Positions 1 to 60,686 of a DNA stretch of 64,000 nt are shown here, in pieces. A program made the translations under genes and the position numbers. Below the pieces are notes generated by a model. It had not been told where the DNA came from, searched no databases, and worked only from the letters and a program-made list of their open reading frames with translations. The stretch is taken from assembly GCA_963971425.1 (NCBI GenBank), contig OZ020514.1, positions 19,255,406 to 19,319,405 of the forward strand. Direction: 5' to 3'. Positions within the stretch are counted from its first letter, which is position 1. Each line of letters begins with the position of its first letter. The stretch comes from Bryoerythrophyllum caledonicum. Taxonomy: Eukaryota > Streptophyta > Bryopsida > Pottiales > Pottiaceae.

Positions 1-535
1 GTCAGGAGGGCAAGTTATCTTTGTCTTTTGGTCTATTGATAGTCTTCGAAGAACCTTGTAACTGTAAGGATAAAATTGTGGCCTTGAGCACTTGTTTCGT
101 CCATAAACGAAGAGAAGTTTTGACCTTATGTCATCGGGGAGGAGCACTTGAAGAACCCTTTTCAGCCGTCCGGGGACCATGGACGACCATATACCAACAT
201 GGAAGGACCTCAATAGGATTTGGAAGAACTCTATGAGACCAAGTCGAACAATAATGTTGTTGTAATCGAAGCATCGGGAGGTGCAGTTATATAGTATTGC
301 TCAAAGCAAAGCAATCCGTTCACAGACAATACGATTACTTATTTTGAGTCGTCGCGGACTGGCTGCGAAACATAACAAAAGAGAAGAGCTGGAAGTTAGA
401 TCGACAAATATTCCTATCTAGGCATCAGAAAAAGAGAGGACATGAAGCATGTTACATGTGGTAGTTGTAAACCATTGACAAGGATATATTAAAGCCATAT
501 TAACAAATAAACAAATCACTGATAGTAGTGCTTAG
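1..535. other. No gene seen; one E1-type dyad
   Basis: I see no convincing coding sequence here. At 399-418 there is one dyad, GATCGACAAATATTCCTATC, of the same type that fills element E1 to the right. E1 therefore probably already includes this stretch, and its left end may lie outside the window. Confidence 0.5.
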
Positions 536-2263
536 TCAGTGAAATTTTCCATTTTTGGAATCCCATAGTTTAGAACACCCTAACACGATATTACGTGCGA
601 TGGTAGACTTCCTAAATCCAGTACTAGCCCCACATCTAGAAAGAGGATTCTCTCGAACAAAATCAGCAACAGGGAGCTTAGAGGCAATCATAATCTGCAG
701 CCACGGAAGCATGGTGTTCATGAGGAACCGGTCCGGCGATTCACCAGACCACTCCGAAGGATGAACAGCGTTGAACTGCCCGTTGAGGAGGTTCTTCTCT
801 GGGCTGTCATCAACAAGCAATGCCCGATCAAGGTCCACATGCTCAAGAACACCTCTAAGTTTTCTAAGATCTTTCATCATGTACTTCTTGTCTGTCTTGC
901 CCTTGCTTCCGGGAAAGGAAGAAAATGTCACATCGTTTTGTGACAAAACCGGCAGCTGCTCTGGTTTGAGAGAAGAACCAGACAGAACACAATCTAACAT
1001 GAATTCAATGTTTCTCGGAATGGCGCAACTCCATACTACAACATTAGCCTTACTCTACAACCAGTGCAAAAACGGAACACAGTCGGGTCTAAGGATACAA
1101 CCGCGACCGCTATCAGTTCTGTGGACCAGAAATCCATTCAAGTCCAGGACGACCGTGTACCTCGGATCCATTACCTTTGCAGAGTGAGGGGCAACAGTCA
1201 GAGCGGGTGGAGGTATTTCAGCTGCAGCGAACCAAAGAGTAAGCGTTAGTAGAGAGCGAAGGACATCAAAAGATCTTCCTATCTAGCAATATAGAGCACC
1301 AAAAGGAGGAGGTTCGGACATCGAAAGATCTTCCTATCAAGGTCTATAAAGCACCAAATGAAGGAGGCGAGGACATCAGAAGATCTTCCCATCTAGATAT
1401 ATAGAGCACCAAGAAGGCGATGACATCAAAAGATATTCCCATCTATCGAAACATCGCAAAAAGAGGAGAGTAGTGAAGGTAGAGCGGCCTCCAAGAGATG
1501 TACCTTCAGCAGAGGGTCGACCACCAGAATGGGCACCGCAGCGTGCAATCATCTCCCTGACAGTAGCTTCATCATGAAGCAACTCCGAGTCGACCCTGTA
1601 ATCCTGGCTAAACTTCAGTGAGTCTGAATCTGCATCATTGACCGCAGACTTCAATACGTTCGCAAGAGGATTGAAGGCCTGCAGAGATCCACTGGCCTCA
1701 TCGAATATCCTAGCCAACAATTCTTCCGCAATCTCCACGCCATCTCGGGAAGAAGTCTGAGCATGGAGAGTTGGAGAAGACGCGGAGCAATTAGTAGCAA
1801 GAAGTCTGGCAAGTGTATGTGCAGCCGAGTGTTGCTCACGATCCGAGATAGCCCCTAGTGCAGCGCTAGAACTAGGTTGAGATGGTGCATCTACCTCCAT
1901 TGGCATCGCGCCGAACATAGGACGCTGAACATCGTCCGATGGAACTTTCGGTGGAGATAAACGTACAATCGGACATGTCACTCTCGTCTTAGAGCCAGAT
2001 TTCCCCGGGGTATACTCCGTCGTGTATATAAATACTAGCTTCTTATATTTCGAAACAGTGGGTTTCGGCAACTGTGCAACAATTGCCTCGATGTCCTGTG
2101 GCAGCTTTTCAACAAGGGCCTCAACAGAGTTGTCCTCGATGCCTGCATCGGCCGTTCCACTCACACCTCCATGCTCGATGTCGGACAACGACGCCACTCC
2201 ATCCATCGCCTCGGTATGAGCAGCAAGACGTACCACCACGTCTTCACTAGTGCATGCACTCAC
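536..2263 (-). pseudogene. Spliced HAD/NIF (FCP1/SCP-like) phosphatase-family gene with one premature stop
   Basis: Exon 1 runs 2263-1504 and exon 2 runs 1221-536. The intron 1222-1503 begins GTACAT and ends GCTGCAG, and its one- plus two-base phase joins the reading frame exactly. The N-terminal part is Ser/Ala-rich and unrecognised apart from a KYKKLVFIY stretch. Exon 2 is a NLI-interacting-factor type HAD domain. It has VVLDLNGFLVHR (motif I), then LRPDCVPFLHWL, SKANVVVWS, KDLRKLRG, and LLVDDSPEKNLLN (the C-terminal DDSP signature of the family) with a following Trp. The catalytic DxD is DLN here, as in a group of plant HAD proteins, so activity is doubtful. A TAG at 1055-1057 interrupts motif II. 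The intron carries four tandem E1 dyads, tying the gene to the element. NIF phosphatases normally act on phosphoserine in RNA polymerase II tails or receptors; no such role is claimed here. Confidence 0.7.
1262..1450. repeat. Four tandem dyad units inside the HAD-gene intron
   Basis: Units start at 1262, 1317, 1372 and 1422 (period 50-55). Each begins GACATC and holds an imperfect dyad around AAAGATCTTCCTATC, followed by a conserved TATAGAGCACCAA tail. The whole array lies within the intron 1222-1503. Confidence 0.85.
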
Positions 2264-2653
2264 GTCCTAGATATTAGGCCACCGTCGAGCATTCCGAATG
2301 GAGGGATCCCCCTTCGCACATAACCCCGACGGCATAGATTTAGGACAGAGAATTAGAACATGATAGAATAAGGGTGCTCAAAATTTTCGAATAAAGAACG
2401 GGCAAAGCGTAAGACCAATGTGGATCGAAAGATCTTCCTATCCTCCAGTACTCACTGAGGAATGAAGGATCCTCCAATCCACAAAGACTAACGGAGGAAC
2501 TTCTAAAACAAAAAAATTTACAATAATATACAAAAAAAATTACAAAAGTAAACCAAAAAAATTCCCTATTAGATTACTGAGCATCTAAAAAATTGTTGTG
2601 AACCGTCAGAAGATAAATTGTTCTGGTGATTAAGTTTGGAGTTAGCTGCTGCA
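2264..2653. other. Intergenic spacer between two minus-strand E1 genes
   Basis: No coding sequence is evident. A single dyad, GATCGAAAGATCTTCCTATC, lies at 2423-2442, upstream of the HAD gene start. The remainder is A-rich. Confidence 0.5.
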
Positions 2654-3349
2654 TCATACTTGAGAACTGTGCAGAGAGGAGCCTTCTCCTATAAGAGCCT
2701 GAGACGGTAGAAACTCGTCATGTTGATGGGGTAGCGGCTCCTTCGAGACTTTCTTCTTTAAGATCTTACTCTTTGGAGGGTGCCGAACTTGGACCTCCTC
2801 CTCCTCGTCCTCCGGCTTGTCCTTTCGCTAGTCCTCCCGCTCATCTTCCTCCTCGTCCTCTGGCTCGTCCTCACGCTCGTCCTCCGGCTCGTCCTCCCCC
2901 TCGTCCTCCGTGCTTAATTCTTCATCAGATGGCTCTTGCCGACGTTTCATCCGCGTCTTCGGGTTGATGTCCTCCTCCTCATCTTCGTTCTCCTGCTCTT
3001 CCTCCTCGTCCTCATTTGCCTCCTCCCTATGCGTTTGCCTGGACGCCACAATCACCTCTTGCTCGTCGGCAGAGACCAAATTCTTACGATCGTGCCCTCT
3101 CTTGGAGACCCGCTCCTTCTTCCTGGGTTGTCTATCCCTGGGCTCTATCATCATGGGCTCCTTCATCCTGGGCTGCTTCTTCCTGGTTCGTTTCTTTTGT
3201 TCTGGAACTGTTACAGCAGCCACTTTTCGAGAGTCCCAGATACCTGTGGCCGTCCTTATGGCAGCTAGACGTTCGTCCTTCGAATAGACGACCTCGATGA
3301 CCTGCGCGCCCTTTGTCTGCAAGCAAAATCGAACGACACAAATGACAAC

Positions 3350-3439
3350 CTGGAATGCCAACAAGCACAATGCATCAACGAGAATCACACACATCATAGC
3401 ATACCCCGGGGAGATCAAAATATATTCCTATCCACTTAC
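3350..3439 (-). repeat. 90-bp intron built around one E1 dyad
   Basis: The second intron of the ParB-like gene contains the dyad GATCAAAATATATTCCTATC at 3413-3432, directly after its GTAAGT donor. The intron is only 90 bases, so the dyad occupies nearly a quarter of it. Confidence 0.75.
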
Positions 3440-4886
3440 CAAACCAAGCCAAGTTATTGCAGGGCCTCCGCCGATGTTCACAATGACATTTTTGGGCGCC
3501 GCAAGTGTCCTAATAATATCATCAACCGCGTCGATATTGAAATTCGCCCACCTGAGCTGATTCCACTACGTTGTCGCATTCTTGAAATCCGATGCGGATA
3601 CCCTAAACCTTGAATGGCATGTCATTCCCAAAGAATTGACGAAAGGATGCCGTAGGCTGGCAACCCTGTTCATTCCCATAGACAAAATTGAAGTAGAGAG
3701 GAAGTGTCAGTTCAGGAGTTGGAGGTCTCTTGAAGCCCTCAATACCCTCCGTGATATATAATGTCGATGAAAAATTCCATGGTTTGATCTGGTGAACCGT
3801 CGAACCCTTCTCCGCAATAGCATTCGCAACGTCCACCATACCATCCCGGTTGGTGATAAACACGCCAGGATTACAAGCCCTCCGAAATTGATGCTCATCA
3901 TTGTACTCCATGGCCTGCAAAGTTCTCACGACCCGCTCATAGATATCGTTGAAATCGGATTCACGGCCAGTATCTCGATCAACGAAGTAGGAAACAAACA
4001 CCACATTTGCATCCATCGCCAACCATCCCTTCTCCAATAATGTGGACAAGCGAGTAGACTTCTCAACATCTCCAGTAAGCCTGTCCATGGTATTGCACCT
4101 ATAAAAGGCGGAAAACGACTCAACGGCAGTTGACGGCTTGGGTAGACGCTCCTGCGATGAAATTTGCCTCTACTGATCGAAGAGCAACCTCAGAACGGCT
4201 GGAAAGTCTTCTGCCTTCGAGGATGGCGCCAAGTTATTCCCTCGCTTTGCAAAGAACTTATTGCCACCCTTATCCTTCATCAACCTGTCATACAAAGACT
4301 CAACGACAAACTCCGAGACCTTGAATTCATTGACCGCATCACCGTACTCCGTCTCTGTGTAAGACACATCCTTCTGAGTCTTTGACTTCAGCGGCTTTGA
4401 CTTAAAGTAGTGCATAAACTCATTTTTGATGAGTCTCTTCTTCTTCTCGATGCTGCACCAGTATTCAAGTCCCTTAAGAACAGGAGCCTTTTTCATGGAC
4501 TTGGTCGGCTTAATCGAGCACTTCTTCTCCATGACCAGCTTAGCAACTCTGTCAATATCGGTCTCCCACATAGCATACAACGGCTGAAGATCGGCCTTTC
4601 TCAAGGCCCTACTTTGGTACCGCCTTTTCTTTGCCCTCTCCCTCCTCACCACAGCGTCCGCATCATCGGCCTCGTCGGCAGAGTCGCCGTCCGCACCGCC
4701 AGGAAAAGTGCATTGCACCCCGTATGGATCAGGTAGTAGACCACTAATCCAGTTCTCCTGGATGCTAAGCCAGGTCTGATAAACCCGCTCATCAATGAAG
4801 AGAAGCGGCAGCTTTGGCTGACCAGTGGCATCATCTTCTGTGAAGTCATTCTTCGTGAAAACAGCGGGAACCTTATCTAGCCAAGC

Positions 4887-5439
4887 CTGCACGAAAAAAT
4901 CGATACAAAAAACATCATCAGAGACTCGGATCGAAGAAAAGATGAGGGTATGATAGGAAGATCTTCCCATCTAGTGAGACGCTGAAGATAGGAAGATCTT
5001 TCGATCTATAAGAATGACGCGAAGTCTAGAGGTAGAAAAGATAGGAAGATGTTTTGATCTAAAAGAATGATGCAAAGTCTAGAGGCAGAGAAGATAGGAA
5101 GATCTTTCGATCTACAAGAATGATGCGAAGTCTAGAGGCAGAGAAGATAAGAAGATCTTTCGATCTATAAGAATGACGCGAAGTCTAGAGGCAGCGAAGT
5201 TAGAGCATACGCTAATGCAACGGGGTCAAAAGGTGCATGGGAAAATCCTTAGAACGACAACATCCAACATTAACAACAGATGTCAAAGGACACTGCGGAA
5301 AGAAAGATATTTCGATCTCTGTGACCACTGCGGTGATTAGAGGACCCTAGGGATAGGAATATATTCCGATCAATTCCGTGGTAAACATCATAACAACGCG
5401 GACAAGAAAATGCAATTTAACAAATGGTTTCAGACTTAC
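4887..5439 (-). repeat. 553-bp intron with four 53-bp dyad repeats plus single dyads
   Basis: The first intron of the ParB-like gene (GTAAGT at 5439; GTGCAG ending at 4887) holds tandem units starting at 4987, 5040, 5093 and 5146, exactly 53 bases apart. Each has GATAGGAAGATCTTTCGATC or a close variant followed by AAGTCTAGAGGCAG. Single dyads lie at 4952-4971 and 5352-5371 (GATAGGAATATATTCCGATC). Confidence 0.85.
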
Positions 5440-6835
5440 ATTGAATTGAGGCGAGTGTGCCAAACCATTTGGAGACGGCTTTGGACACCCCGCCTGGGCC
5501 CAACTCTTCCGTGCAAGTCCCAGTTGAGTAAGATAGTTGATCTCCGCCCTAGCTCCGGCCAGATCTTGGTTAAGGATTCTTGAGTAATAGATTAACTTCC
5601 CAAAGTTGGCTGGATCTGCCCAAACGATGGTAATTATGAAGCTTTGTGCGTCGGCTAGTTCATCATCACTAAGAGACTTTTCGGCAATAAGGACTTTATG
5701 CGCAGCAATGCAGTGCTGCCCACCGATGATAACGTAGTACGTATCATTTGTAATGTCCCGTCTTGTCGGCTTTGTCATAAAATACTCGAATAAACTATCG
5801 ACGGGATCCACACCAAAGTCGTCAGCAGCAGGCTTGTTCTTAATCGGCATAACGTACAGATGCTGAAGCAAAGCTTGAAACGGCATCGCCCGCTTGTGGT
5901 CAACGATCTCGCCAACACGTTTCTACTTGAGCTTCCGATACGCCACCACCCCGGATGTGGCCCTATGCAGACGTTGAATTCCGACGACGAGGTCAATCTT
6001 CGCATCATCGAGTCTCTTTACCGGGCGCGTACCAAATACATGCAGACTCGAGAATTCTTTCTCGTACAACGCCCTCACTTTCTGCAGGTCCTGTGCCGAA
6101 TACTTCGAAATAGAACTACTCGAAAACATCACAGCCTGAGCCAATGAGAATTCTTCAATCTTGGGATCTGACTTCTTCCGTTGTTTCTTCGTGTCCCCAG
6201 CTCCTGAAGTCTCCCGAGCTGCTTGTGACGGCCTCTTCTTCTTGCTGGGAGGTGTAGAAGCATCCTGTTTGGCCAACTCGCTATTGGAGGCATCACGACA
6301 AGCTCGGAGCTCCGCCCAATTGTCAATAATTCGATCAACGTCAGGTCCCGTCCTAGCAATAGAAAAACCATGATCTCTGACCGAAGCACAAAGTCGGGGG
6401 ACCATATCCTTTGTTGATACAAATAGGCCGTAGATCCTCGAACACTTTGCACTTGCAACAAACTTCTTAATAACAAGAACAACACTGTTTTCAATTCCAA
6501 GCACGTCCACCACATCCAGCACCTCCACGTTGTGAATCGTGAGCGCTATCATTTCTTCACGTCCCTCGGCGACATCGGCTACAAACATAACTGGCGCAAT
6601 TTGGATTGTCCGCTTCGAATCATCCCGAATCCAAGCAAGACCCCATTCGGTGACATTACTTGCTATGAACAAGGCGCTCGGTTTAGGTTCTTCGAATGTG
6701 TGGCCAACGGCCTTGACACCACAGTTCACCACATCACGGAGGCAGTAGGGACGCCAGTCCTTGTTCGTCTCCAACCACGGAATCAAGTTTGCACTGCTCA
6801 TACAAACAGAATGGTCAGATCAAACGCCATGATGG

Positions 6836-7475
6836 GATAGGGATCTACCGATCAAAATTAAACCAGACGTCGCAAAGTATCCACGCGAAGGGATAGGAAG
6901 ATCTACCGATCCACAAACACACAAGTAACCCAAGCCCATCGCAATGTGGGATAGGAATATAATCCGATCTACGAACACCCTCTACATCCATCCCGATCCC
7001 ATGCCCAACAAGGAGAGATGGGAAGATATACCAATCCACAAACTCTCAAGCATCAGAAGCCCACCGCAGTGTGGGATAGGAATATATTCCGATCAACAAA
7101 CAGCCTCTGAACTAATACCGAAGTTATGACCCCACGAGGATAGATGGGAAGATCTACCGATCCATAAACACTCAAGCAACCCAAGCCCACCGCAGTGTGG
7201 GATAGGAATATATTCCGATCAACAAAGAGCCTCTGAACTAATACCGATCCTAAGACCCCACATGGATAGATGGGAAGATCTACCGATACACAAACACTCA
7301 AGCAACCCAAGCACACAATAGAGTGGGATAGGAATATATTCGGATCAACAAATAGCCTCTGAACCAACTCCGATCCTATGACCTAACAAGGATAGATGGG
7401 AAGATCTACCGATCCACAAACTCTTAAGCAACCCAAGCCCACCGCAGAGTAGGATAGGAATATATTCCTATCATC
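6836..7475. repeat. Higher-order dyad array upstream of the ParB-like gene
   Basis: Two dyad types alternate: GATAGGAATATATTCCGATC (starts 6950, 7075, 7201, 7327, 7453) and GATGGGAAGATCTACCGATC. They make a two-dyad unit repeated every 125-126 bases, with spacer words such as AAGCCCACCGCAGTGTGG. The array sits immediately 5' of the minus-strand ParB-like gene, in its leader or promoter region. The periodic opposite-strand frame through it is an artefact of the repeat. Confidence 0.9.
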
Positions 7476-9120
7476 TAAAACCCTAAATCTCAAGGAGATA
7501 TCGCTATATCCACTGATAAAGGAAGTGCTTTGGAAACCTTTCCCTCAATAAGGAGAGATACATTGAATTTTCTATCTACTGCACCTTGAATTGCAATGCA
7601 TAACATAACTAAGCGTAGTGAATATCAGATGATATTCATTGATCTAGGTTATCGTGTATCACAACAGAGATAATTCAGAGCATGGAATCTTACTTGACGG
7701 GATTTTCTGAGGTGGTTTCGGACATTGTGTTGCGTCCAAAACAGTGCGCAATCTGAAGATCACAGAAAATTAGTCGTTATTGATTAGTTACATGATTAAT
7801 ACGTAACCAGTATAATCAGATTGATATTCATTTGAGGAACTCTATTCCAAAGTGAAAAAAAAAATAACTGGAGAAAATCATAACCTAGGTTTAGAACGTT
7901 GTTTTGGTTCTAAAATCCTTCAAGCATGCAAGAAAAAGCTGAGGAATAAGAATGAGCGCTGAAATTACCTTTGTCTGAATGAATCAGCGCGTCGAGGCAC
8001 CCGCTGGTTAGCACTAGGGTTGCACCCGTTGGACGCATCCGTTAGCTGCAGTCGCTCGCTCGCTTCGTCTGTAAGCAGAGCGATGAAATGACCTTCGCTC
8101 GCTTGAACAATTTCTCGCTTGCTCGCTCTCTTAGAACCTTCAAACACCGGCGTTGCTCGTGCTCCTCCTAGAACGTCCAATGATGCTCTTGATCGCGCTC
8201 ACGAAATCGCCTTCGACCGAAACTAACACCTCGCACTCCTGTTACTGCTACTCACAAATACACCTCGCACTCCTGCTGCATCTACTCACAAATTGACCTC
8301 GCACTCAAACTCACGCTAGCGTACTACAATCCATACACAACACAGGAAAAAAAAGCATGAAAAATCAACACGCAGGAGGAGAGAGACGAAGACAGGAAGC
8401 TAAGAAAACAAGAAGCGTTTGAAAAGCAAGAATGGGAGGACTTGGAAGGGTTGGAGTTGGTGGTGGCGGGAGGGAGGTAATGGAAAATGTAATGATGATG
8501 GAACCAAGCCGTCGACCACGACGGCTGAGTTACCATTTGGCACTTCTAATGATGACTTTTTCATCATTTGTCTGAAGTGAACTTCTCTACAAGCCGTGAA
8601 GTTCTTTTCTTGATTTGACTTTTCATTACTTTCTTGTGTGATTTGAGTCTTCATTACTTTATTTTCATTTCTTTTCATTACTTTCTTTACGTGAACTTTT
8701 TTGAATTGTAAATTTAAATTGCAAATTTTATGTGTAGATTTGATTTCCAAATTTAATTTTACACATTTCATTTGCAAATTTTATTTTCACACATTTCATT
8801 TGCAAATATAATTTTACACATTTGATTTATGAACTTACTTTTCACAATTTAATTTCCAAAGTGGCGGCCGCGGTAATCTACATGTATTATGGTGTATTTG
8901 AACATGATAAAATTTAAACTTTGGAATAACTTTCAAATGAAAGATGTTGGTTGAAAATTAACAAATGGATGAAGCAAGTCTTGATAATTTGAATACAATG
9001 TCTAAATACATCAAAATCCAGAAGATTAATTGTAATTAAACAATCAAGGTATATACATCTCCATTTGTGGATTAAATTTTTTAAACATTGAATACAATAA
9101 AAAATACTAAACTTAAATCC
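7476..9120. other. AT-rich E1 centre, no gene seen
   Basis: No coding stretch is convincing. Around 8680-8850 a short diffuse repeat of TTTGCAAATTT/CACATTTCATTT words is visible, ending at a lone NotI-like GCGGCCGC at 8863-8870. The rest of the stretch shows no recognisable structure. Confidence 0.4.
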
Positions 9121-9290
9121 TGAACTTTAACCCTAACCCTATACCTAATGCTAACCCTAACCCTAATCCTAAACCCTAAACCCTGTCATAACCCTAATTC
9201 TAAACCCTAATCCTAAACCCTAAACCCTGTCATAACCCTAATCCTACATCCTACATCCTTAACCTTCAAACCCTATATCCCTAAATGAAA
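9121..9290. repeat. Interstitial telomere-like repeats (CCCTAA/CCCTAAA)
   Basis: Degenerate tandem CCCTAA, CCCTAAA and TCCTAA words fill this segment, with a larger duplication of CCTAAACCCTGTCATAACCC. It is plant-type telomeric sequence in an internal position. A similar patch is found at the matching place in E2 (39983-40100). Confidence 0.85.
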
Positions 9291-9379
9291 AATTGATTCT
9301 AGTTATTTCTATTCAATTTTTCATTCTATATCTTTAGTAGAGTGTTACCCGTGTCCTCCGGCTACAACATTTTTTTGTG

Positions 9380-9545
9380 TTCAATCCCCACCTCCCCGTC
9401 CCCTAGCCCTTTCCCTCCAATTCATTGTCCCCCCCGTCTTTGTCCTCCGTCCCCCGTCCTCCGTCTCCGTCCCCCGACCCCGTCCCCATCCCCATCCCCA
9501 AACCCTAATCCCCGCCCCGTCCTTTTATCCAAAACCCTAACTTTT
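9380..9545. repeat. C-rich CCCCGTCCC/TCCGTCCCC simple repeat
   Basis: Strand-asymmetric runs of CCCCGTCC, CCGTCC and CCCCATCC are followed again by AAACCCTAA words. I see no coding sense in the frame that crosses it. Confidence 0.7.
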
Positions 9546-9619
9546 AGCTGTCCATCCAAAAGCGTTATTCATCGACGCGTTCATCCATCCACATGTTTCT
9601 CATCCTATATTCTTTTATA

Positions 9620-10745
9620 GATATAGATTTATTTTTTCTATATAAATCATATGAAGATATAATCGTACAATAATATATATCGTATCGAAAAACAATTAGA
9701 TATAAATCATATGGAGATATAATTGTATGTAGAATATATATATATATAACATTTGTGTATGTAAAGTTGTAGGTTGGAAATATATGTATATATATATAAA
9801 ATGTATCCACATATAATTCTTGTATATTGTATATATGAATAAAATGTATGTATGTATAGTTGTATGTTGTATATATTATACATAGATATAAATCATATGG
9901 AGATATAATTGTACAATAATATATATCGTATGGAGAAACAATTAGATATAAATCGTATGAAGATATAATTGTATGTTGTATATATATATACATATAACAT
10001 ATGTGTATGTATAGTTGTATGTTGGATATATATAAATATATAAAATGTATCGGTATATAATTATTGTATGACATTGTATATATGTATAAAATGTATGTAT
10101 GTATAGTTGTATGTTGTAGATATAAATTTGTATGTTATATAGATATAAATCGTATGGAGATATAATTGGGTGTTGTATATATATATAACATCTGTGTATG
10201 TATAGTTGTAGGTTGGAAATATATGTATATATAAAATGTATCAATATATAATTGTATGTTGTATATGTATATACATATAACATCTGTGTATGTATAGTAA
10301 CATAATTATAGGTTGGATATATATAAATATATAAAATGTATATCGATATATAATTATTGCATCTTGTATATATGACTAAAATGTATGTATATATAATATA
10401 TGTGAATAAAATGTATGTATGTATAGTTGTATGTTGTATATATAGATATAAATTGTATGGAGATATAATTGTGTGTTGTATGTATATATATATAACATCT
10501 GTGTATGTATAGTTGTAGGTGGTATATTTATATAAATATATAAAATGTATCGATATATAATTCTTGTATATTGTATATATGTATAAAATGTATGTTTGTA
10601 TAGTTGTATGTTGTATATAAAGATATAAATCGTATGGAGATATAATTGTGTGTTGTATATATATATATATATATGTAAGATCTGTGTATGTATAGCTGTA
10701 TGTTGGATATGTATATAAATGTATAAAATGTAACGATATATAATT
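9620..10745. repeat. AT-rich satellite with TATGGAGATATAATTG units
   Basis: Long, irregular tandem units of roughly 190-300 bases share the words ATAAATCRTATGGAGATATAATTG, GTATGTATAGTTGTATGTTG and ATAAAATGTAT. Internal TA microsatellite runs vary in length. The minus-strand open frames through it are low-complexity Tyr/Ile repeats, not genes. Confidence 0.85.
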
Positions 10746-10749
10746 GTAT

Positions 10750-11590
10750 GTTTATGTATAATTCTAGTAATTTCTATTCAATCTTTCATTCTAATTCTTT
10801 ATTCCATTTTTTTATTCTAGTTTTTTTCATTCAATCTTTCATTTTATTTTATATTCTATTTTGTGATTCTAATTATCTCTATTCAATCTTTCATTCTATT
10901 TCTTTATTCTATTTTTTGATTCTCTTTTCTATTTTGTGATTCTAATTATTTCTATGCAATCTTTCATTCTATTTCTTTATTCTTTTTTTTATTCTAGTTA
11001 TTTTTATTCAAGCTTTCATTCTATTTCTTTATTCGATTTTTTGAGTCTCTATTCTATTTTGTGATTCTAATTATTTCTATTCGATCTTTCATTCTATTTC
11101 TTTATTCTATTTCTGATTCTCTTTTCTATTTTGTGATTCTAATTATTTCTATTCAATCTTTCATTCAATTTCTTTATTTATTTTTTTGATTCTAGTTTTT
11201 TCCATTCAATCTTTCATTCTATTTCTTTATTCTATTTTTTGATTCTCTATTCTATTTTGAGATTCTAATTATTTCTATGCAATCTTTCATTCTTTTTCTA
11301 TATTCTATTTTGTGATTCTAATTATCTCTATTCAATCTTTCATTCTATTTCTTTATTCTATTTTTTGATTCTCTATTCTATTTTGTGATTCTAATTATTT
11401 CTATGCAATCTTTCATTCTATTTCTCTATTCTATTTTGTGATTCTAATTATTTCTATGCAATCTTTCATTCTAGTTCTTTATTCTATTTTTTGATTCTCT
11501 TTCCTATTTTGTGATTCTAATTTTTTATATTCCATCCTTCATTAGACTAATTCTCTATTTTATTTGTATTCAATCTTTCACTAGACTAAT
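10750..11590. repeat. TTTCATTCTATTTCTTTATTCTATT satellite
   Basis: About ten head-to-tail units of roughly 75-110 bases are built from CAATCTTTCATTCTA, TTTCTTTATTCTATTTTTTG and TTTTGTGATTCTAATTATTTC. The array abuts the preceding satellite directly. Confidence 0.85.
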
Positions 11591-12650
11591 TCAAACCGTC
11601 GGATGTCAATCAGCACTTGTGGTGCACTGTGAGATGCACATGAGAACTACAGATCTTCATCATTAAATTCATACCACTTAATTGTCAAGAACTGTTACAC
11701 TCAAGATTCCATTTCATTTGCCAATCATTACAACAAACGCTACTCTCCATCTCCGCCAAAATGGTCAATCATTCTATGATGCCAAGAATTGGACGTACAA
11801 TTTCCCGCTCAAGTTTGAAAGGAGACGCTCCATCCCTGACTTGAAGCAATTTCAAGTCTTATTTTTCAGCACTACAGCAAGTGGTAGGCATCGTGTGTAG
11901 TAAGGCGCAATTAGGTTGACAGAACGTTAGAGCGAATGTTAGAGGGAGAACGTGAGGGACGTGGTCAGGGAGTTCGTATTCAAGGCAGCAAAGCTTGAGC
12001 ATGCGTTGTATCGAGTGTGGTGTTGGAGTATGAGCGCTTAAGCGTTAGTAGATGCTGGTGCCTTCAGCGCAAGCTTGGTCGTGGGTGTTCGTGCGTGGAG
12101 TTGGATTGTGTTCATTGATGCTATCGTCTCGAGCTCGATAGTGATCCATCTCTGCTAAGTTTCGCCTCAACAACGGTACCATCGCCTCCCTCTTTCAGCA
12201 TTTCTTCTGCGAGTGCGTTTGCTATCTCAAACATTAGGAAATTGCTATGACGCCGTTCATCCGATGTTATAAGGTTGATACTGTCTCCTGAACTTCAACG
12301 TTGATCACTTCCATACTATTCAATTCTATATAGGAGTAGAATTGAATTGTTGAATGCCTCGAATTCCGAGGCTCTCTCAATTTGTATGTGAATGTAATAA
12401 AGCTTGTGGTATGGATTCATACTTCGCACAATTCTATCGATTTTGCTCCAGTGACAATGTTGTCCTACAACATTGACTTCATTGACTAGGCACATGATTC
12501 CGTTCCAGTGTCGACTTATTTGTATATGGAATTAATCTTGTGGTATGGATTCATACATCGCACAATACTATTGGTTTCGTTCCAGTGTCAATGTTGTTTC
12601 CATTCTGATAGAGCACACTAACTCAAGGTATATTAATAACTACCAGACCC
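11591..12650. other. Unresolved stretch with a direct duplication
   Basis: No gene is evident. Segments near 12398-12470 and 12527-12598 repeat each other: both contain CTTGTGGTATGGATTCATAC, a CGCACAAT word and a TTCCAGTG/TCCAGTG...AATGTTGT ending. The period is about 129 bases. The stretch leads into the dyad array ahead of the transposase-like gene. Confidence 0.5.
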
Positions 12651-12666
12651 TCTCGTTGCTTTCGTT

Positions 12667-13190
12667 GATCGAAAGATCTATCGATCTTCTCATCAACAAC
12701 TTCTAGGAGAGGGGGACCTTGCAGATAGGAAGATCTTTCGATCCTCTAAATTTTTTTAATAGTCCAACGCTCCTAAATATTTGATAAGAGTAAGACGGTG
12801 TGGATGGGAAGATCTTTCGATCCATTTCATCGACCCTCTTGATCGAAAGATCTTTCGATCTCACTTGGTTCGTTTAAGGTTTTTTCGAGACCTCGTGTAT
12901 TGGAGTATCTTTCAAACTCCCTCGTAGATAATTTTGTTGTGTTTGAGACCTAAAGATCGGTAGATCTTTTGATCACTATCATGGTTAACTTCGATTTATG
13001 AGGGACCTTGGGGATTGGAAGATTATCGATCCGCTTAATGTTCCGGTAAGTCTCTAGGATGACCCTGTAGATAGGAAGATCTTTCGATCTGTCTTATGGT
13101 TTACTATGGCTATTGAGTAACCTTGTAGGCTGGATGATCTTTGAGTCCCTTGGAGGGACCCACTGGATAGGAAGGTATTTCGATCTTTCT
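12667..13190. repeat. E1 dyad cluster upstream of DUF7869-type gene copy 1
   Basis: Dyads occur at 12667-12686, 12724-12743, 12803-12822, 12841-12860 (the perfect GATCGAAAGATCTTTCGATC), 12955-12974 and 13070-13089, with weaker ones near 13014 and 13172. Spacing is irregular. The cluster occupies the presumed leader or first intron of the downstream gene, whose exon begins after GTTTGCGCAG at 13315. Confidence 0.85.
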
Positions 13191-13315
13191 CGTGGTCAAC
13201 TTGTCTCTCAGGGTGAGTGTGAATTTTGCCGGATATGTTGATCTGTCAATCTCTCTTCTGTGCCTAATGGTGTTCTTGTCCGGTTGTTGATGGACTGTTT
13301 TGATTGTTTGCGCAG

Positions 13316-14585
13316 GGCCATTATCGGACCAATTAGGATGTTTTCTTCTTCTGGCCGTGACAATGGCATGCGAGACCGTCGAGGTGAACTAGCGCCCGGA
13401 ATGTCTGTTCTGCTTTGCTATGCCGGCCATGGGGTTGTGGGACGCGCCACTGTTATTGAAGCAGCCCCCTCAGGGCGTTGGCTTGGCGTTGACATCAACG
13501 TTCACATGCCTCAGATGACTCTTCTCCGACCTGTGGAAATTTGTCCTGCGGCTGGAAGTCTTTTGATTCACCCTATTCAAGAGGGTGTTACTTTGTTGGC
13601 TGATTCAATCGGTAGAACTGTTTTTTGGGTGTCAGCATGCGTTGTCCTTCCAGATGAGCCAATATCGGTCGACCCAGAACTTGATGGCAGTTCCAAATCT
13701 GCGGACTCTCGTCCGTTCTTTCCGCAGGAGGAATTGGTGGGGATGGTGGTGATACGCAATAATTGTGATGGACTTCCGATTGCATCTGGTCGCATCAATT
13801 GCGCCCTGCCTGCTGAGCCTTTCCAGGACAGTTCATTGGGGGAGGGAAACATTGGCGTCAATGTCTTTGACGTATTCATCGGAGACCGTAACGACATCAT
13901 GAGCCATCAGAGGTGGCCCATTCTTGATTGTAGATTCAATGGGGGGCGTGGTCTGAGCGAGACAGTGGACCATTTCATCTGACTTCCTCCTCCTGTGAAC
14001 CCCAACGCCCACCTTGGTGATCGTCCGAAAGCAGCATACCGCTTTGTTCGTCGCAAACCGCGAATCGAGGAGAAATTCACCTCTTATGCAAAAAAGACTC
14101 TCTCCGAAGCAATTCAGGCGGTCAGTTCGTTGTTATGTTGTCCTGACGAATGCGTCAGATTATTCTGGCCCCAAGATACGCTCCTCATTCGGCAGAAGTT
14201 CTGGCTGAAAGATTTCGATGACCGACGGGATTATGGTAGAGCTGTGGGTGGGCAATTGCTTTACTTGGGAAATAATAGGAAAAGAAAGTATGTGACTCTG
14301 CTTGGACAAGATGTCTGCTCAACAACATGGTACCAGATCCATGGTATTCCAAAGTCAACGTTCCACACCTATATCGACCAGTACAAGGAGGGCATCATTT
14401 CATCAACGCACGGAAACAAAGTCGTCAAACATCCGCGCCTCGGAACCGTGCAAACCATGGATACGATTTCTGCTATCATAAGTGAGAACGCTGATCACAT
14501 GCCTCATCAAATGCGCACAACTGTACCAGGGCGGATGGACACATTGAAGTTTGTGCCCTCTGGGCATAGTTGGAAGAGGATCTAG
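13316..14585 (+). pseudogene. DUF7869-type transposase-like gene, copy 1, 5' part
   Basis: The exon starts after a GCGCAG acceptor; the first Met in frame is at 13338. The first 200 residues (LGVDINVHMPQMTLL; RTVFWVSACVVL) are unrecognised and have no counterpart in copies 2 and 3. From about 14080 the protein aligns with them: SLLCC, then DVCSTTWYQIHGIPKSTFHTY. That last stretch resembles a helix-turn-helix, matching GVSRATFYRY in copy 3. A TGA at 13980-13982 and a TAG at 14583-14585 break the frame without any shift. Homology resumes only at 16173, so the gene is split by about 1.6 kb of inserted or intronic sequence. The role proposed is DNA cleavage and joining for E1, inferred from the conserved Asp/His motifs of the 3' part and not demonstrated. 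Confidence 0.6.
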
Positions 14586-15150: not shown

Positions 15151-15306
15151 CTTCTGTGGACTAAGAGACAAACTATTTTTTGGCTATTGTAAAACTGACT
15201 CGTTTTGCTAGTGTTGATCAAGCTAAGCCTTCTATGGACTAAGAGACAAACTATTTTTTGGCTATTGTAAAACTGACTCGTTTTGCTAGTGTTGATCGAG
15301 CTAAGC
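15151..15306. repeat. Two-copy 78-bp direct repeat
   Basis: The unit beginning CTTCTRTGGACTAAGAGACA is present twice, at about 15151 and 15229. The copies are nearly identical through GTTTTGCTAGTGTTGATC, which indicates a recent local duplication. Confidence 0.9.
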
Positions 15307-36615: not shown

Positions 36616-36619
36616 CCTA

Positions 36620-37460: not shown

Positions 37461-37462
37461 TA

Positions 37463-40705: not shown

Positions 40706-40710
40706 AAGGA

Positions 40711-41345: not shown

Positions 41346-41443
41346 ACTCACTTCATATGCTTCTTCATTGATTATCATTCTACAAGTTATTCACCCATAC
41401 TTATTGAAAGGATTATCTAATACTTATCTTATTGGAATGTAGG

Positions 41444-54470: not shown

Positions 54471-55096
54471 CTAAGCCGTTTCTTGAGTTTGTCTTTCGCT
54501 GGCTGGAACGGACCTTATCCGAAAACCTCTGGAATCCAGGAAGTCATGCAATCTTTGGAGCCTCATTCCAAGACCGTCTTCATTTGTGAGGAGCGGTGCA
54601 GCTATCTCCTGGAGTGGATGAAGCATTCCGGCTTCGATTTCAGCCTCCAACCTTGAGAGGGTGGCGTCGGTGTTGCGCAAAGCTGCATCCAAGTGCCTTG
54701 CCAACAACGGTTGCCGATAAGCCTTGTTGAGTAGCTTCAAGACAAGCTGATGCATACGATCAAAGTCGCATACCCAAGTCTCGCCTAATTCTCAATGGTT
54801 GGAAGCCACTGGGATTACATCTCCGGTTTCGGTATCAGAGGGGACATCATTATCGAGGAAGCCCTCGGCATTTGGATGTCGACCATTGTCTTGGCGGAGG
54901 AGATTCGTCATTCCACCTTGGATTGTGCCACGAAGGGAGCCCAGATATCTAGCAATTTTTCCTCCGCTAGGTCAGGTCTTGTCATTTTCAGGACCTTAAC
55001 CTGGTGCTTACAGATGTTTCCTTTTTGGGAATGAACACATTGGCAGACGACCCATTCGGTGCATGGATTGTATACCGCATACAACGCCATATTCAT
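54471..55096 (-). pseudogene. MULE transposase, 3' part with SWIM zinc finger (separated by E3)
   Basis: From 55096, LYAVYNPCTEW is followed by VVCQCVHSQKGNICKHQVKV, a C-x-C-x7-C-x-H SWIM finger as found at the end of MULE transposases. After a frameshift near 54920, GDVIPVASNH and MHQLVLKLLNKAYRQ continue to a TAG at 54471. The catalytic part lies 5.6 kb away at 60687-63073 on the same strand. Confidence 0.85.
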
Positions 55097-55099
55097 TAA

Positions 55100-55960
55100 A
55101 ATAAGACATTTCAGAGTCTCAATTCAAAATAGTGTCTAATTATAGTCATTTTTTGTTTCATTAAATTGAGACTACTTATTAATTTGAGACTTTCTCTCGA
55201 TTGAAATTGCCAACTACTACATCCAAAAAAATTATCATAGCAAGAATAAAAACACTCCATAAAAATTTAAGCGGCAAAAACTTGAGCATCTCTAGCAAGG
55301 CTCAAAATTGGACTTAAATAAGACATATACTTTCATTTACATGCCACCCAAAATGCATGTCTTCTCAATTTGAAGGAAAATAAAATTTACGAATTTCAAG
55401 AGGTGGTACTTGTTTCAAATAACAAGGTCATTGAAATACCAATCACTAAAAAATTAGCACATATTGTAGAAATACATTCAATTATTTATTTTAATAGAAA
55501 GTATCAATGCATCAAGGATAAATGCACAATTAATCAAACACACAATGTTAACCACAATTTATCCATCAATAACTTTACAAACAAACGACAACGTTTAATG
55601 ATATTGAAGCAACAAAATACATCACTATATGAAATTACAAATTCTAATATAATTTTTGTCTAGAAATATGCTACGCAAACATTCAACGTCTCAATTCCAC
55701 GACAAACCCCCGTGTTGAGTACATACTTAGTACAATATCTAGTCTGAAACAACACAAGTTCAAATAAAGACATGCACCCCCACCTATTTCAAATGACTAG
55801 GATAACTCTTGTCATCAAAAACGAGAGAATCAGTTGAAATCTAATATTGAGCTAAAGATGCCTTGATTATTTCTACCTGTGATTTCAGAATTTTGAGCCT
55901 CGAAGAGCTAGTGTTCCCACGGAACCTAGGCTTCCAAGCTGTTACAATGCAATCTGTATA
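55100..55960. other. AT-rich 3' flank of DUF7869 copy 3
   Basis: GTCTCAATT and AATTGAGAC words are inverted relative to one another at 55117-55190. No coding sequence is supported. The frame at 55370-55663 is AT-rich and featureless. Confidence 0.4.
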
Positions 55961-55963
55961 TAT

Positions 55964-58653
55964 TCAGATTGGTTTAGATTCAGATTCTTCTACCCAATTG
56001 TTCCCATTACTAGAATCCCACCCTTGGTACGTTTCCAAGTCCACATGACGTTGAGATGCATGTTTGTAGTATTGCACTTTAATCTCATGAGAATGTTCAC
56101 GATCCGGATGTGGATTAGTCAATGCCAAGGCAACCCAAAATGGGCGCAAATTCCCATCAGCTGAACGCACCGCAAGTACATAGCCCTCATATACATCTCT
56201 ACCAACCCGGAACAATGGAGGCGGACAATGACGTCGTTGTCCAATGAATGGAGGGTCTTTAGCATACTCCTCCCTCAAAGTACCATCTATATCGTATTCA
56301 TCAACAATAGACGGAGCATATCTAGATAGTGGCCAAAATCCCTCTCGTAGGTAAGTCGATTCTTCCAATGGCACCTCAAGAGCAGCCTTTACACCTCTTT
56401 AATAGTACATGATATGCTCATTCTTCCTCCTGTATTCACCTGAGATATCCTCATTTGCCATAGATTCCCATAGACTTAGAAACCCAGAAATACCCTTCAT
56501 AACCTCATCATAATTCTCATGACGATGGGGCATGAGAGGAAGTGGCTGCCCATGAGGCAATATTGGTCTACCATCTGCCGTCATTTTCCACAACTGAATT
56601 CCTCCATTCTCCTCGGGCAACCAATCCCTGTCTGTACAAAGAATTTTGTACTGCATCTTTGGCAAACCATCAGAGTCCTTGTAAAACTTGAACTGTTGGC
56701 CCTTTGTATGACCCGCAAGGGCCTCATTGCCGATGCACAAATATCCATCAAGAAAGCCCTTGAAGTCAGGCACCTCTTCAATAAGATGTGGAATAACTGG
56801 CTTCTCTTCACCATCCATGAATAACTTCATCAAGAGTGGAATCCTTGGATAGCTATTTGACTTAAATTTGGTACTCCATCTCCCAAACATTGCATCAATA
56901 TCCTCGTGAGTATGACCAATAAGTAAGAAGTTCATGTGTACTTCTCGGAAAATATCCAAATGAACAAGTAGGGAGAAGAAAGCAAACACAAATCTATTCT
57001 TATTGTCTCCTGTGGCATTATCCAATTGCATTTGGAGAATTGGTGGTAATTGCCTTGCAAGAACAGGTTCAACCGATGGAGCCGCAAGGGATCCAAGGCA
57101 TAGATTGGCATCCGCAAGCACAACTGAGACAGAGGAGAAGCTCTCCCTCTTGCAAATAATTCACGAGAAGAATACACCGGTGGACTCTCTAAGTCCCGAA
57201 GTAACTTAACAATGGATCCAACAGTGTGATTCAAGTCGGTGGGGAAGATGTCAAGACTATAATGTGCATAACGGACATCTCCATGTCCATGAGCAGTCAT
57301 TCTAGTCACAACTACGGGGAGTTTCATGAAGGACTCCGTTGCCTTATTCTTGTGAGAAAAATGGGGAGATGTTGTTTTGCTGTGATCCATTTTATCATGG
57401 ATGATGCAAACGACGTCATCAGGCCTATCCTCCGAGTTCTTCCGGTTTCCAGAACATAAAATACGATGAGTCTGTTGGGAGGCCTGATGCAACTTTAATT
57501 TGGTATCCCACATATTGAATGCGGAGGACCCTCGCGTACTAGCCTTCTTCAATTGCTTCAATTGGTCGCATCTACCACAGCGAGAAAAGTTGTCACCCGG
57601 TTTCTTAGTGGAAAGTTGTTCAAATTTGGAGCTCCGAATTCGGCTAAGACCAGACAAAGATATTGGCTTGAGGCCAAATCTTGAATTCACTTCGTTTACT
57701 TTGGGCAACACTGCACTCCATTTAAAGGAGGAGGGAAGATGTTTCGAAACAACCCTCTCCCCAGTGCCAAGTGTAGTAGTCTTGTTAGGACTACTATCAA
57801 CAGCATCGTCAAGTAGGTCGTGCAATGTAGCAATTGCTTGGAGAGTATGGGTGCAAGGCTTCTTAGTCCCAGAATTGCCGCGTGCCATCGCTCGCACTTC
57901 ATCCTTTGCATCACTTTTGTATCGGTAGAATGTGGCTCGGCTGACCCCCATGATTGTACACCATGCATCTTGGCATACATCAATTCCATCGAGCGCCACC
58001 ACATGGTTGCCATCGGAGTCAATGTGCATTTGCCTATGCACATCAAGTAAAACATATTTCCGAAAGTATACACCTCCAATGTCATTGTGAACTTGCATTC
58101 GAAGTACAAAAATTAAACTGCGTGGAAAGCTTTGAGTACAATTTCTTGGACAACAAACAACGCTCGCAACAAGGTTGATTGATTGTGCAAAAAGGAGTAC
58201 TTCCTTCTTTGGTGGGGAAGGCAGCACTCGCCTTTGACAATTGCTCTTATACTGTCGAACACCAATTCTTGGACCCCAACGGAATACCTTTAGAGCGGCA
58301 TTATAAATGCAAGTTTGCTCTTGATCGTACAAACTCATATTACGAAGAAAGATCTGTCGAATTGGCCATGCTCGGAGAGCAAACATTCAATTCAAAGGAA
58401 TATCATCCTCATTTAACGATTCAGCAATCAGAACCGCAACATGATCATCTCCAAGTGGCCCACCTCCAGTTTCGGGAATTAAGTTGGAATCAACACTCTG
58501 ACATAGTCTGATTCCGACGTTATTCCCTAATGTATTTTGAAGGATAACGTGCTTCGAAAACCAGGCAGCGCGAGGAATACCCTCACAAGGAGCAACACCG
58601 GGAGGCAAGGTTGGTGGAACTCGATTTCTGACATCAAATGAGTCTTCTTCCAT
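55964..58653 (-). pseudogene. DUF7869-type transposase-like gene, copy 3 (most intact)
   Basis: The start at 58653 directly follows a TTTTGTAG acceptor. The frame is interrupted only by a TGA (58387), one frameshift near 57130 and a stop at 56399. Domains in order are: FALRAWPIRQIFLRNMSL (shared with copy 2); a Cys-rich VVCCPRNCTQ; the helix-turn-helix-like WCTIMGVSRATFYRYKSDA; the zinc knuckle RCGRCDQLKQLKK; IIHDKMDHSKTTSP; MTAHGHGDVRYAHYSLD; LQMDNATGDNKNRF; LIGHTHEDIDAMFGRWS; and the C-terminal FIGQRRHCPPPLFRVGRD block. The spaced Asp, Asp and His-x-x-Asp motifs are those I would test as an RNase H-like active site. The length is about 890 codons. Confidence 0.75.
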
Positions 58654-58795
58654 CTACAAAACATCACATCAAAGCGACATTAGTTCTAGAATGAAGATAA
58701 TTGAAATATGCAAACTAATAAGCCCCTTATATCCAAAGCAATATAAATTTGAACAAGAGCATTCGGGAACAAAGGCAATATAAAAAAACTTCACC
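58654..58795 (-). promoter_or_regulatory. Leader or first-intron end of DUF7869 copy 3
   Basis: The sequence between the dyad array and the ATG ends with a pyrimidine-rich GATGTTTTGTAG. In copies 1 and 2 too, an AG acceptor lies at or near the start of coding (20 bases or less). A spliced leader carrying the dyads is inferred. Confidence 0.4.
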
Positions 58796-59372
58796 GAGTA
58801 TCCTTGACTCAAGGATATGAATGAGAAAAATTATAAAAACACATGAAAATATATCCAAAACACTATCTTCAAGTCGAGGATACTAGTTGTATGAATCCAA
58901 CAGAGAGAGCGACATCTGTGGACGGTCCTGGGAAATATCATCAGACAACATAGTACTCGATAAGATACATTGAAGACAGTAAAATCAAGCAGGTTGATAA
59001 TAGACGATTATAGGTAAATTCTCGACTCGAGGATAAAAAGAGTGTAGGCGATCTTTCCATTCAAGTGATCAAGCACAATTGATTTTGATTCAGATTGGCA
59101 TTGATTTTTTCCATAAGTTGGGTTTATCCTCGGGTTGACGATAGACCGAGTAATTTTACCTTAGAATACTATATTCTAAATCTCATTCAAACAAAAAAAT
59201 TCAGTCCTTAGATGAGGATTTTTTTCATAGGATCCGTTGATCAACTTCTGAACTAGCAGGAGTCAGTGTTATCCTCGACCCAAGGATAAATATAATGAGG
59301 ATTTCATTCGTAGGATTCGTTAATCGACAACTAAACTGGTAAGAGTTGGTGTTATCCTCGACTCGAGGATAA
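58796..59372. repeat. E3 dyad array TATCCTCGACTCGAGGATA
   Basis: Dyads lie at about 58796, 58865, 59020, 59122, 59207, 59270 and 59352. The last is the clearest TATCCTCGACTCGAGGATA. The inner CTCGACTCGAG core equals that of E2, but the outer arms are TATC/GATA instead of TTTAG/CTAAA. Confidence 0.85.
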
Positions 59373-60292
59373 ATGCTTAGTTTTGAAGTAGTTCAGTGAT
59401 ATGCTACAGTGATCATGAATAGTGTTGGAGCATTCAGAGCACACTTTCTTCTAATTGCATGCAAATTCTACAGTGGATTAGAAGTACTACACCGAGTTCT
59501 ATGACTACGACGACGAAATAAATACTACACGAGGTGTGAACAAACTGCGGTGATGCGGACGGCCTATGGGCTTGGGTCAAGTAGCCCTCGATTGCTCAAG
59601 AACAGCCTCAGACAACAATCTCATGATGTAGAAGTACCTTTGAGAAGAAATCGAACACTCCACAAGGATGCGCCAAAAAAAAACCAATGTACTTCAGATA
59701 ACCTCAGACATAGTATTGACAACTACTGTGAATGTTCTCGAAAGAAGCAAGACACTGAGCGGAGTAGAGAGAGAGAAGAGAGGATCCAACAGGTGCAGAA
59801 GTAGGAAATGAACTTGTGAAAATGAGCATACGGTAGTCTTCTGCGAAGCGGAGCTCAAAAATCGGTGCTGGGCAGGAAAACTCCTTTCTCACGGCTCCAG
59901 GATTTGGAGGGCAGTAAATGGTTTCCACTGTCCAACTTTTTAGCTGCCGCTGTCCTATTTTTGGTTTGACATACGCACTAATTTCAGTACGCCACTAGCC
60001 CGGAATCCACGCATGCATTGAACAAGTCTTTTGGATAAGTAGTAGCACAGATTTATCACCTTTAACCTCAATAGGACCAACTGGCCCCCCGGGGCCAAAT
60101 TGGATTTCAAGCATGCATAGAATGCCATTCAAATCCATGACGAGATTTAGCCACTTTGCTAGTCCTACATATTTGTTGTGTTTGTCATCTCTTATGATGC
60201 CATAAACTTATCTTCGGGTCAAGCATAATTTCATTGCCTCGCATGTGTTCATGCCATTCTCTCATTCCTTGCTTTATTCCAATGTATTTCAG
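59373..60292. other. E3 interior, no firm gene
   Basis: The frame at 59550-59804 has no recognisable motif. The stretch ends in a pyrimidine-rich ATTCCAATGTATTTCAG acceptor for the next exon. Confidence 0.4.
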
Positions 60293-60640
60293 GTTTCAAA
60301 GTCTAGTGTTGATCCTACCGCATGCCTGAATATTGGTAGTATGCTGCCCTTCGATGTTAGCGTCATTCCGGAGTACTCTAGGTCTTATGGTGGTGACATC
60401 TCCCAGCCCCAACAATCAAAACCATATCTTATGTGCACTGCAACTGATGCTGCCTCTACTATCATGGACTTTTCCAAGCAGAAGGTCGATGATGGTGTTG
60501 TGGATAGCCTTCCCGAGCGGAGGGCTGGGATAGTGCCTGTTGCATCTCCTTCACCCCTCAAGCGGATGTTTGCTGCTGTTCAAGATAGAACCGACTGTAC
60601 TCCTCAACGAAAGCTGTACGGAGATGATGTACGGAGATAA
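60293..60640 (+). CDS. Probable terminal exon of the second E3 gene (unknown)
   Basis: After TGTATTTCAG the frame reads VSKSSVDPTACLNIGSMLPF and continues open to a double stop TAA TGA near 60640 (ending GDDVRR). It is transcribed away from the DUF7869 gene, as the ParB-like genes are in E1 and E2. No ParB-like motif is visible in this exon, and upstream exons were not found, so equivalence is only positional. Confidence 0.4.
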   Translation, partial: VSKSSVDPTACLNIGSMLPFDVSVIPEYSRSYGGDISQPQQSKPYLMCTATDAASTIMDFSKQKVDDGVVDSLPERRAGIVPVASPSPLKRMFAAVQDRTDCTPQRKLYGDDVRR

Positions 60641-60686
60641 TGAATATAGTGTTATACGTAAGGTGTCCCCTATTCGAGGATTTAAC

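Follow-up and report, generated by a model that had tools for sequence, protein, structure and literature searches.

Large DUF7869 transposons of the moss Bryoerythrophyllum caledonicum carry family-private palindromic sites that may be read by an element-encoded regulator

A 64,000-nt stretch of the genome of the moss Bryoerythrophyllum caledonicum (contig OZ020514.1, here C1, positions 19255406-19319405; hereafter the window) contains three elements, E1, E2 and E3, which represent three families of a single kind of large DNA transposon, each with a transposase-like gene of the DUF7869 family (PF25273) and its own private family of palindromic sites (dyads). The typical dyads, palindromes of ~19-27 bp, are GATAGGAAGATCTTTCGATC in E1, CACTTTAGCTCGAnTCGAGCTAAAGTG in E2 and TTATCCTCGAnTCGAGGATAA in E3. 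We lean towards explaining them as operator-like sites of a homodimeric regulator that would be encoded by the element itself, probably the product of a gene here called GQH, in an arrangement resembling VANC of Arabidopsis but built of unrelated parts.

Private dyads of the three families

Motif matches at up to 3 mismatches in the window numbered 13 for E1, 46 for E2 (24 distinct sites, most of them read on both strands) and 11 for E3 (6 sites), against an expectation of 0.01 for each of the three dyads in shuffled sequence, and a template-free palindrome search of the window recovered the same three families. Together with the recognition of the DUF7869 genes by PF25273 and tblastn, these counts confirm what an initial annotation, made from the letters alone, had proposed, namely three related elements sharing a DUF7869 gene and carrying private dyads. 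The palindrome that it had quoted for E1 equals one E1 site, but the commonest E1 form is the asymmetric GATAGGAAGATCTTTCGATC. Exact matches in the whole genome (437.4 Mb in 894 contigs) amounted to 326 for a degenerate E1 20-mer, 4490 for an E2 19-mer and 385 for an E3 21-mer, with 0 for each reversed control pattern.

Further copies, or large parts of copies, were compared in the same genome (E2 a-d, E3 e-h and E1 i). Across 12 element sequences and at up to 5 mismatches, own-type sites numbered 7-34 per sequence and off-type sites 4 in total, one in E2c, one in E2d and two in E3h, the stretch of which includes flanks; E1 copy i held 29 own-type dyads and 0 of E2 or E3 type. Families with private and yet related dyads suggest that each of them encodes a protein recognizing only its own dyad.

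The placement of the dyads is that of sites at gene starts and near element ends. The 34 dyads of E2 copy a are distributed over the 5′ sides of all five genes (in each case with one within ~450 bp of the frame), the spacer and both end regions, where they stand 640 bp inside the left end and 330-670 bp inside the right one; none of the 34 falls in coding sequence, which makes up 40% of the element. In the window, E2 dyads stand 5′ of the GQH gene (34590..35393, partly a 53-bp tandem array), in the central spacer (37464..38510), 5′ of the DUF7869 gene (40709..41342, partly a 47-bp tandem array) and between this gene and the right terminal inverted repeat (TIR; 44588..44943). Those of E1 form a cluster between the open reading frame (ORF) called ORF X and the GQH gene (4952..5371), a 126-bp tandem array upstream of the GQH gene (6892..7473), a cluster 5′ of the DUF7869 gene (12667..13185) and a group straddling the end of the first DUF7869 exon block and the gap that follows (14661..14765); in E1 copy i, the dyads at 13881 and 13964 likewise lie between DUF7869 frames, one ending at 13850 and the next starting at 14041. 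E3 dyads are found 5′ of the DUF7869 gene (58798..59372), with one more at 60208..60228 beside a phosphatase gene remnant. Such family-specific arrays in mostly noncoding DNA support the analogy with VANC that had been drawn at the outset.

The dyads also keep company with GQH genes. Thirty-five of the first 50 E1 sites on C1 had an E1-type GQH gene, among those listed, no more than 12 kb away (0.71 at random), and 20 of 50 E3 sites were within 15 kb of a GQH gene among the best 150 of 1490 candidates (0.8 at random). A genome-wide spread of dyads without the genes, named initially as a finding that would speak against the idea, was not seen in our sample: of four dyad loci that were aligned to the elements, three (L002, L004 and L044) proved to be fragments of them, 85-94% identical, and the fourth (L006) gave a weak match to E3 copy g, 66% over 329 columns.

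Covariation of proteins and sites in two genomes

Searching the genome with the E1 GQH protein (840 candidates, 104 scored) returned copies at 65-100% identity and a separate group at 43-49%. All eight loci sampled from this group had repeated sites within 1.2 kb upstream, and these were of three kinds: E4, with the dyad GATCGTAAGATCTTACGATC, at five loci, three of which are mutually 98% identical; E5, with GACCGGAGGATCCTCCGGTC, at one locus; and E6, with the imperfect palindrome GATCGATGGATCCTCCGATC, at two loci that are 88% alike over 479 bp. The dyads of E1, E4, E5 and E6 follow a common GATC-centred 20-bp design, GAYCGnnRGATCYnnCGRTC, which has 541 genomic sites (reversed control 0). Half of 50 such sites listed (25) have a GQH gene among the matches listed within 12 kb; 13 of 13 E1-type sites adjoin E1 GQH genes (7 loci), and 12 of 12 E4- or E6-type sites adjoin non-E1 GQH genes (5 loci). 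The latter comprise 7 E4-type sites, two of which tie with E5, and 5 E6-type sites, non-E1 GQH genes being counted as one class and several sites within one element being non-independent.

The E3-type search revealed at least eight further GQH groups, and the stretch 5′ of the GQH gene was sampled for four of them, 73-82% identical to E3 copy f. All four carry the E3 dyad, at 2-4 sites per 751 bp (up to 5 mismatches), and in pairwise blastn of the upstream stretches nearly only the dyads align, in either orientation, the longest non-dyad match being 42 bp (L061 against L062) besides a few other short ones.

Related elements also occur in a second genome. Contig CADCWO010000071.1 (L001), filed as part of a cyanobacterial metagenome-assembled genome (MAG), carries an E2-type DUF7869 gene whose 963-codon frame is intact (78% identity), with E2-type dyads such as CAGTTTAGCTCGACTCGAGCTAAACTG upstream of it; the contig is probably plant contamination of the MAG. 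Several contigs of this MAG, AVDCRST_MAG81 (CADCWO01; L001, L063-L067), bear moss-like transposon genes, and one NCBI protein (P0123) is likewise filed under a cyanobacterium. A 19-mer form of the E3 dyad has exactly three matches in the 4.8 Mb of the second assembly, all on contig C74. This contig bears a GQH gene that shares 69% identity with that of E3; two of the dyads precede it by 272 and 345 bp, and the third lies in its last predicted codons. On contig C269, a GQH gene whose C-terminal part is 54% identical to that of E2 and 31% to that of E3 has three sites upstream, and the sole perfect palindrome among them, TTCAGCTCGACTCGAGCTGAA (E8), is the E2 dyad with one change per half.

Dyad similarity thus broadly tracks GQH-protein similarity in the two genomes. 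Identical dyads are found at 69-82% GQH identity (E3 types; E2 against L001 was judged by DUF7869), 1-3 of 10 half-site positions are changed at 50-61% and 3 at 31-34% (E2 or E8 against E3), and the dyad centre differs below 30% (E1 clade against E2, E3 and E8). These identities come from partial sequences of unequal length, the half-sites of E2, E3 and E8 were counted by eye, and consensus halves were used since E1 and E6 sites are often asymmetric; the comparison describes a trend and is not a formal cophylogeny test. The early suggestion of co-evolving recognition is supported in so far as protein and dyad relatedness broadly agree, but the order is not strict within the E1 clade.

Structure and gene content of the elements

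Full copies measure 18,997 bp (E2 copy a) and 19,468 bp (E3 copy g). TIRs are present in E2 (AACACCATATTCGTTATA...) and E3 (AACACCATATTCATTAAA...) and are similar between both; the terminal sequence is AACACCATATTCGTTATAWTGGGAGATTT in E2 and AACACCATATTCATTAAAATGAGACA in E3 copy g, with two changes at the opposite end. Target site duplications (TSDs) of 4 bp flank three of the four copies with both ends read, namely CATC for E2 copy b, AAGG for E3 copy g and ATAC for the window E3; E2 copy a, with both ends read, has no exact 4-bp duplication. Inverted-repeat and TIR scans of the window E1 and copy i found neither termini nor terminal repeats.

In E2 copy a, a NIF phosphatase-like gene, an acidic coiled-coil ORF, ORF X and an intact GQH gene of 502 codons are followed by a spacer of ~7.5 kb and by the DUF7869 gene on the opposite strand, in two frames. 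The NIF/FCP1-like phosphatase was recognized by PF03031 in E2 copy a (7.5e-18), E1 (5.2e-7) and E3 copy g (1.1e-7). Active NIF phosphatases carry D-x-D; the genes of E1, E2 and E3 all read D-L-N-G, so that the activity of the transposon protein is doubtful. A search of viral contigs found no relatives.

The initial annotation had given 399..60650 as the span of the three elements, and these limits need revision. The extent of E1 seen in the window is 399..17447, where 399 is only the first E1 dyad and not an element boundary; a second copy, i, lies at C1:18144500-18163300, with 89-95% identity in the main blocks. On the minus strand, E1 has NIF/FCP1-like phosphatase gene pieces (536..1282; the PF03031 match covers 536-1054, and VVLDLNGFLV stands in the ORF at 1055-1282), acidic or low-complexity ORFs that are retained in copy i (1376..3427), ORF X (3603..4970; a single 549-codon frame in copy i) and the GQH gene (5347..6819), which has one in-frame stop in the window copy. 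Its DUF7869 gene (13242..17447, plus strand; PF25273 4.4e-37, tblastn) consists of blocks at ~13242-14684 and 16116-17447.

E2 occupies 32374..45256; its left part is missing, the alignment to copy a stopping leftward at 32374, and its right TIR ends at 45256. It contains the GQH gene (33257..34552, minus strand), corresponding to the intact 502-codon frame of copy a, and the DUF7869 gene (41414..44123, plus strand; PF25273 7.3e-37, tblastn). E3 (55083..60653) is internally deleted: just two segments of copy g, 879-1220 and 15770-19188, have a counterpart in it, and it has therefore lost the GQH gene present in full E3 copies. It keeps the DUF7869 gene (55967..58701, minus strand; tblastn, ~50% identity) and a NIF-phosphatase exon remnant (59995..60207, minus strand), recognized by motif and represented by a fuller gene in copy g. 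This remnant most likely accounts for what had been described as a divergent exon of E3 matching in place the gene shared by E1 and E2.

A hAT-type gene at 17648-19609 (PF04937, DUF659, 1.3e-32) borders E1 on the right and is possibly nested within that element. Telomere-like AACCCTA repeats form short interstitial stretches at 9128-9274 and 39963-40095, and between E1 and E2 there are a short ORF that appears helix-turn-helix-like by eye (22602-23090) and a large GGGAGAGTAAGG tandem array (26776-28005).

The GQH and DUF7869 proteins

The C-termini of E1-clade and E3-clade GQH proteins are homologous (hhalign 97.3%, E 2.7e-11) and have an I-x-G-Q-H core in common. No family in Pfam, PHROGs or NCBIfam matched GQH. 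The gene common to E1 and E2 had been called ParB-like; the GQH gene is indeed present in both, but no ParB family appeared at E values up to 5-10 in Pfam, PHROGs, NCBIfam or the PDB sequences, which leaves the fold itself aside, and since no profile search supports ParB the label should be dropped. Against PDB sequences, the N-terminal half of GQH gave five chains of PR10-type plant proteins (E 0.009-0.14, ~100 columns), a weak match that is perhaps a lead to the fold of this half. The protein collection holds 2 relatives of E1-type and 34 of E3-type GQH from outside.

Contig C1, 65 of the 437 Mb, holds 63 of 103 E1-clade and 70 of 150 E3-type GQH places among the matches listed, an excess that a sex chromosome or a large heterochromatic region could explain; DUF7869, unlike the GQH genes, has 8 of its best 150 places there.

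A relative of the E2 DUF7869 protein occurs in Physcomitrium patens (P0039, 55% identity). The TIRs of E2 and E3 and the 4-bp TSD are features of a DDE-type DNA transposon. As to an RNase H-like DDE/D fold of the transposase, columns D417, D542, D582 and D584 are nearly invariant, and the PDB sequences gave no match of note. No MULE family was hit by the ten window ORFs scanned at E up to 0.05, the transposase-like gene being PF25273. KDZ, Sola and other superfamilies were considered too; the transposase ORFs match DUF7869 only in Pfam, plus a sub-threshold HTH_7, and accordingly no superfamily is claimed.

Six other DUF7869 5′ regions were scanned, which represent about four lineages because the proteins of L041-L043 are closely similar. 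None of the six has a strict palindrome array. A looser scan of L038 (E7) uncovered eleven near-palindromes of the GGGAGGCATATGTCTCACCCC kind, most of them within a 61-bp array; the E7 18-mer GAGGCATATGTCTCACCC has 24 genomic sites (control 0), and four clusters of it lie 1.7-3.8 kb 5′ of listed PF25273 matches, distances being taken by hand. The remaining five regions, three of the approximately four lineages, show no repeated site in the 1.5 kb scanned, with top counts of 3 against 2-3 in shuffles. Three DUF7869 genes (on C6, C361 and C845) have an E3-type GQH gene 7.1-7.2 kb away. The expectation that dyads go with this transposase type, one private dyad to each subfamily, was followed up in part and is too wide: E4-E8 have dyads of their own, but three of the about four DUF7869 lineages sampled outside E1-E6 show none in the 1.5 kb scanned, so that the other finding named initially as speaking against the idea, gene copies lacking a consistent dyad, is partly seen for these lineages.

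A proposed self-regulating transposon and its alternatives

Between the inverted repeats, the elements carry a divergent gene set, with the NIF-like phosphatase, the acidic ORF, ORF X and GQH on one strand and DUF7869 on the other. An element-encoded homodimer, most likely GQH, could occupy the dyads 5′ of the element genes and near the ends, and the bound regulator might keep these genes expressed by transactivation and/or anti-silencing, as VANC does for VANDAL elements. Protein and site would coevolve, so that each family would activate only itself, and an altered site could spread through an element by tandem duplication. Binding, the identity of the binder and the effect on expression or silencing are what we infer here from sequence. 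GQH is the binder that we favor, with reservation; ORF X or the acidic ORF would be a considerably weaker choice, DUF7869 an unlikely one and a host factor a still less likely one. It is possible, though we would put it forward only tentatively, that these ~19-kb multigene transposons form an undescribed superfamily, in which GQH would be a new eukaryotic DNA-binding protein reading private palindromes at all promoters and thereby isolating the expression of each family, with the NIF-like phosphatase acting against silencing.

Several observations weigh against a GQH-based regulator. GQH matches no known DNA-binding family in profile searches, and covariation cannot single it out because the element genes are all inherited together. 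Seven of the 29 dyads of E1 copy i and 3 of the 22 of E3 copy f fall inside the approximate coding limits, mostly at frame edges. Fifteen of the 50 E1 sites (12 kb), 30 of the 50 E3 sites (15 kb) and 25 of the 50 GATC-type sites (12 kb) have no GQH gene nearby among the matches listed, and a GQH match on contig C243 of the second assembly (L066) has no dyad in the 789 bp available beside it. The ranking within the E1 clade is loose, with E1 and E6 differing by 2 half-site changes at 50% identity and E4 and E5 by 3 at 61%, in partial sequences.

The dyads might alternatively be sites at which the DUF7869 transposase acts in synapsis or excision, like subterminal repeats elsewhere, and their presence near the ends (at 640 and at 18333-18663 of the 18,997 bp of E2 copy a) and 5′ of the DUF7869 gene, as well as the discovery of E7 through its DUF7869 gene, would fit such a role. 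We regard it as unlikely, given that the dyads are concentrated around internal gene starts, kilobases away from the ends, that of the other DUF7869 5′ regions sampled five out of six, from three of about four lineages, lack them in the 1.5 kb scanned, and that the TIRs differ in sequence from the dyads and resemble one another in E2 and E3, the dyads of which differ. Less likely again would be a host transcription factor, with different host factors recruited by different elements: the same protein-site pairing recurs in the second genome, and related element proteins pair with related sites, a pattern not to be expected of host factors.

Sites for partition, maintenance or replication initiation in a once-extrachromosomal element, in the manner of ParB/parS, would suit clustered palindromes beside a gene with a GQH motif reminiscent of ParB. 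This is improbable in view of the missing ParB profile match, the lack of a ParA-like match among the ORFs scanned (a part of all ORFs), the insertion with TIR and TSD and the number of sites in the assembly, which runs into thousands. A spread through tandem duplication and shared descent alone, unaided by any recognizing protein, could account for the many sites in tandem arrays and for family copies related by descent; it appears the least probable of these alternatives, as nearly only the dyads are alignable between E3 subfamilies, dyads recur in the second genome, and changes between families match in both half-sites.

Comparison with known systems

A full-text literature search, judged partly by titles, found no published description of this element. 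If the self-regulation proposed here is true, the moss elements would add a second example, of independent construction, of transposons that regulate themselves in a family-specific way. They offer eight naturally varied sites, with candidate partner proteins for seven of them, which would make it directly testable how a mobile element can shift its DNA specificity and yet stay functional, and they may provide plant regulator-operator pairs that are possibly orthogonal to one another.

In bacterial ParB/parS systems, palindromic sites are clustered near the gene of the site-binding protein. The moss palindromes similarly cluster near the gene of a putative site-binder; however, the moss element is a chromosomal transposon, with no ParB profile match and no ParA among the ORFs scanned. 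The TET/JBP transposons of fungi are described as DNA transposons with a captured epigenetic enzyme (PMC12730594). The moss element resembles them as a multigene DNA transposon with a non-transposase gene plausibly used against silencing, whereas its own genes are a NIF/FCP1-like phosphatase (PF03031), GQH and a DUF7869 transposase.

The closest comparison is with the VANDAL elements of Arabidopsis. Their transposase, VANA, is MULE-type, whereas the transposase-like gene of the moss elements is PF25273, with no MULE match among the ten ORFs scanned. VANC proteins are linked to family-specific short motifs in noncoding tandem repeats, for which coevolution has been proposed, and binding and loss of methylation have been shown (PMC5735166, PMC10398659). 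The VANC21 motif is the 9-base YAGTATTAY (PMC5735166), and the moss sites differ from it as palindromes of ~19-27 bp. The moss GQH has no Pfam family match, the moss elements make a 4-bp TSD, and a regulatory role of their dyads is proposed from DNA and protein comparisons. The moss elements resemble VANDAL elements in their family-private, noncoding dyad arrays and in related proteins being paired with differing motifs.

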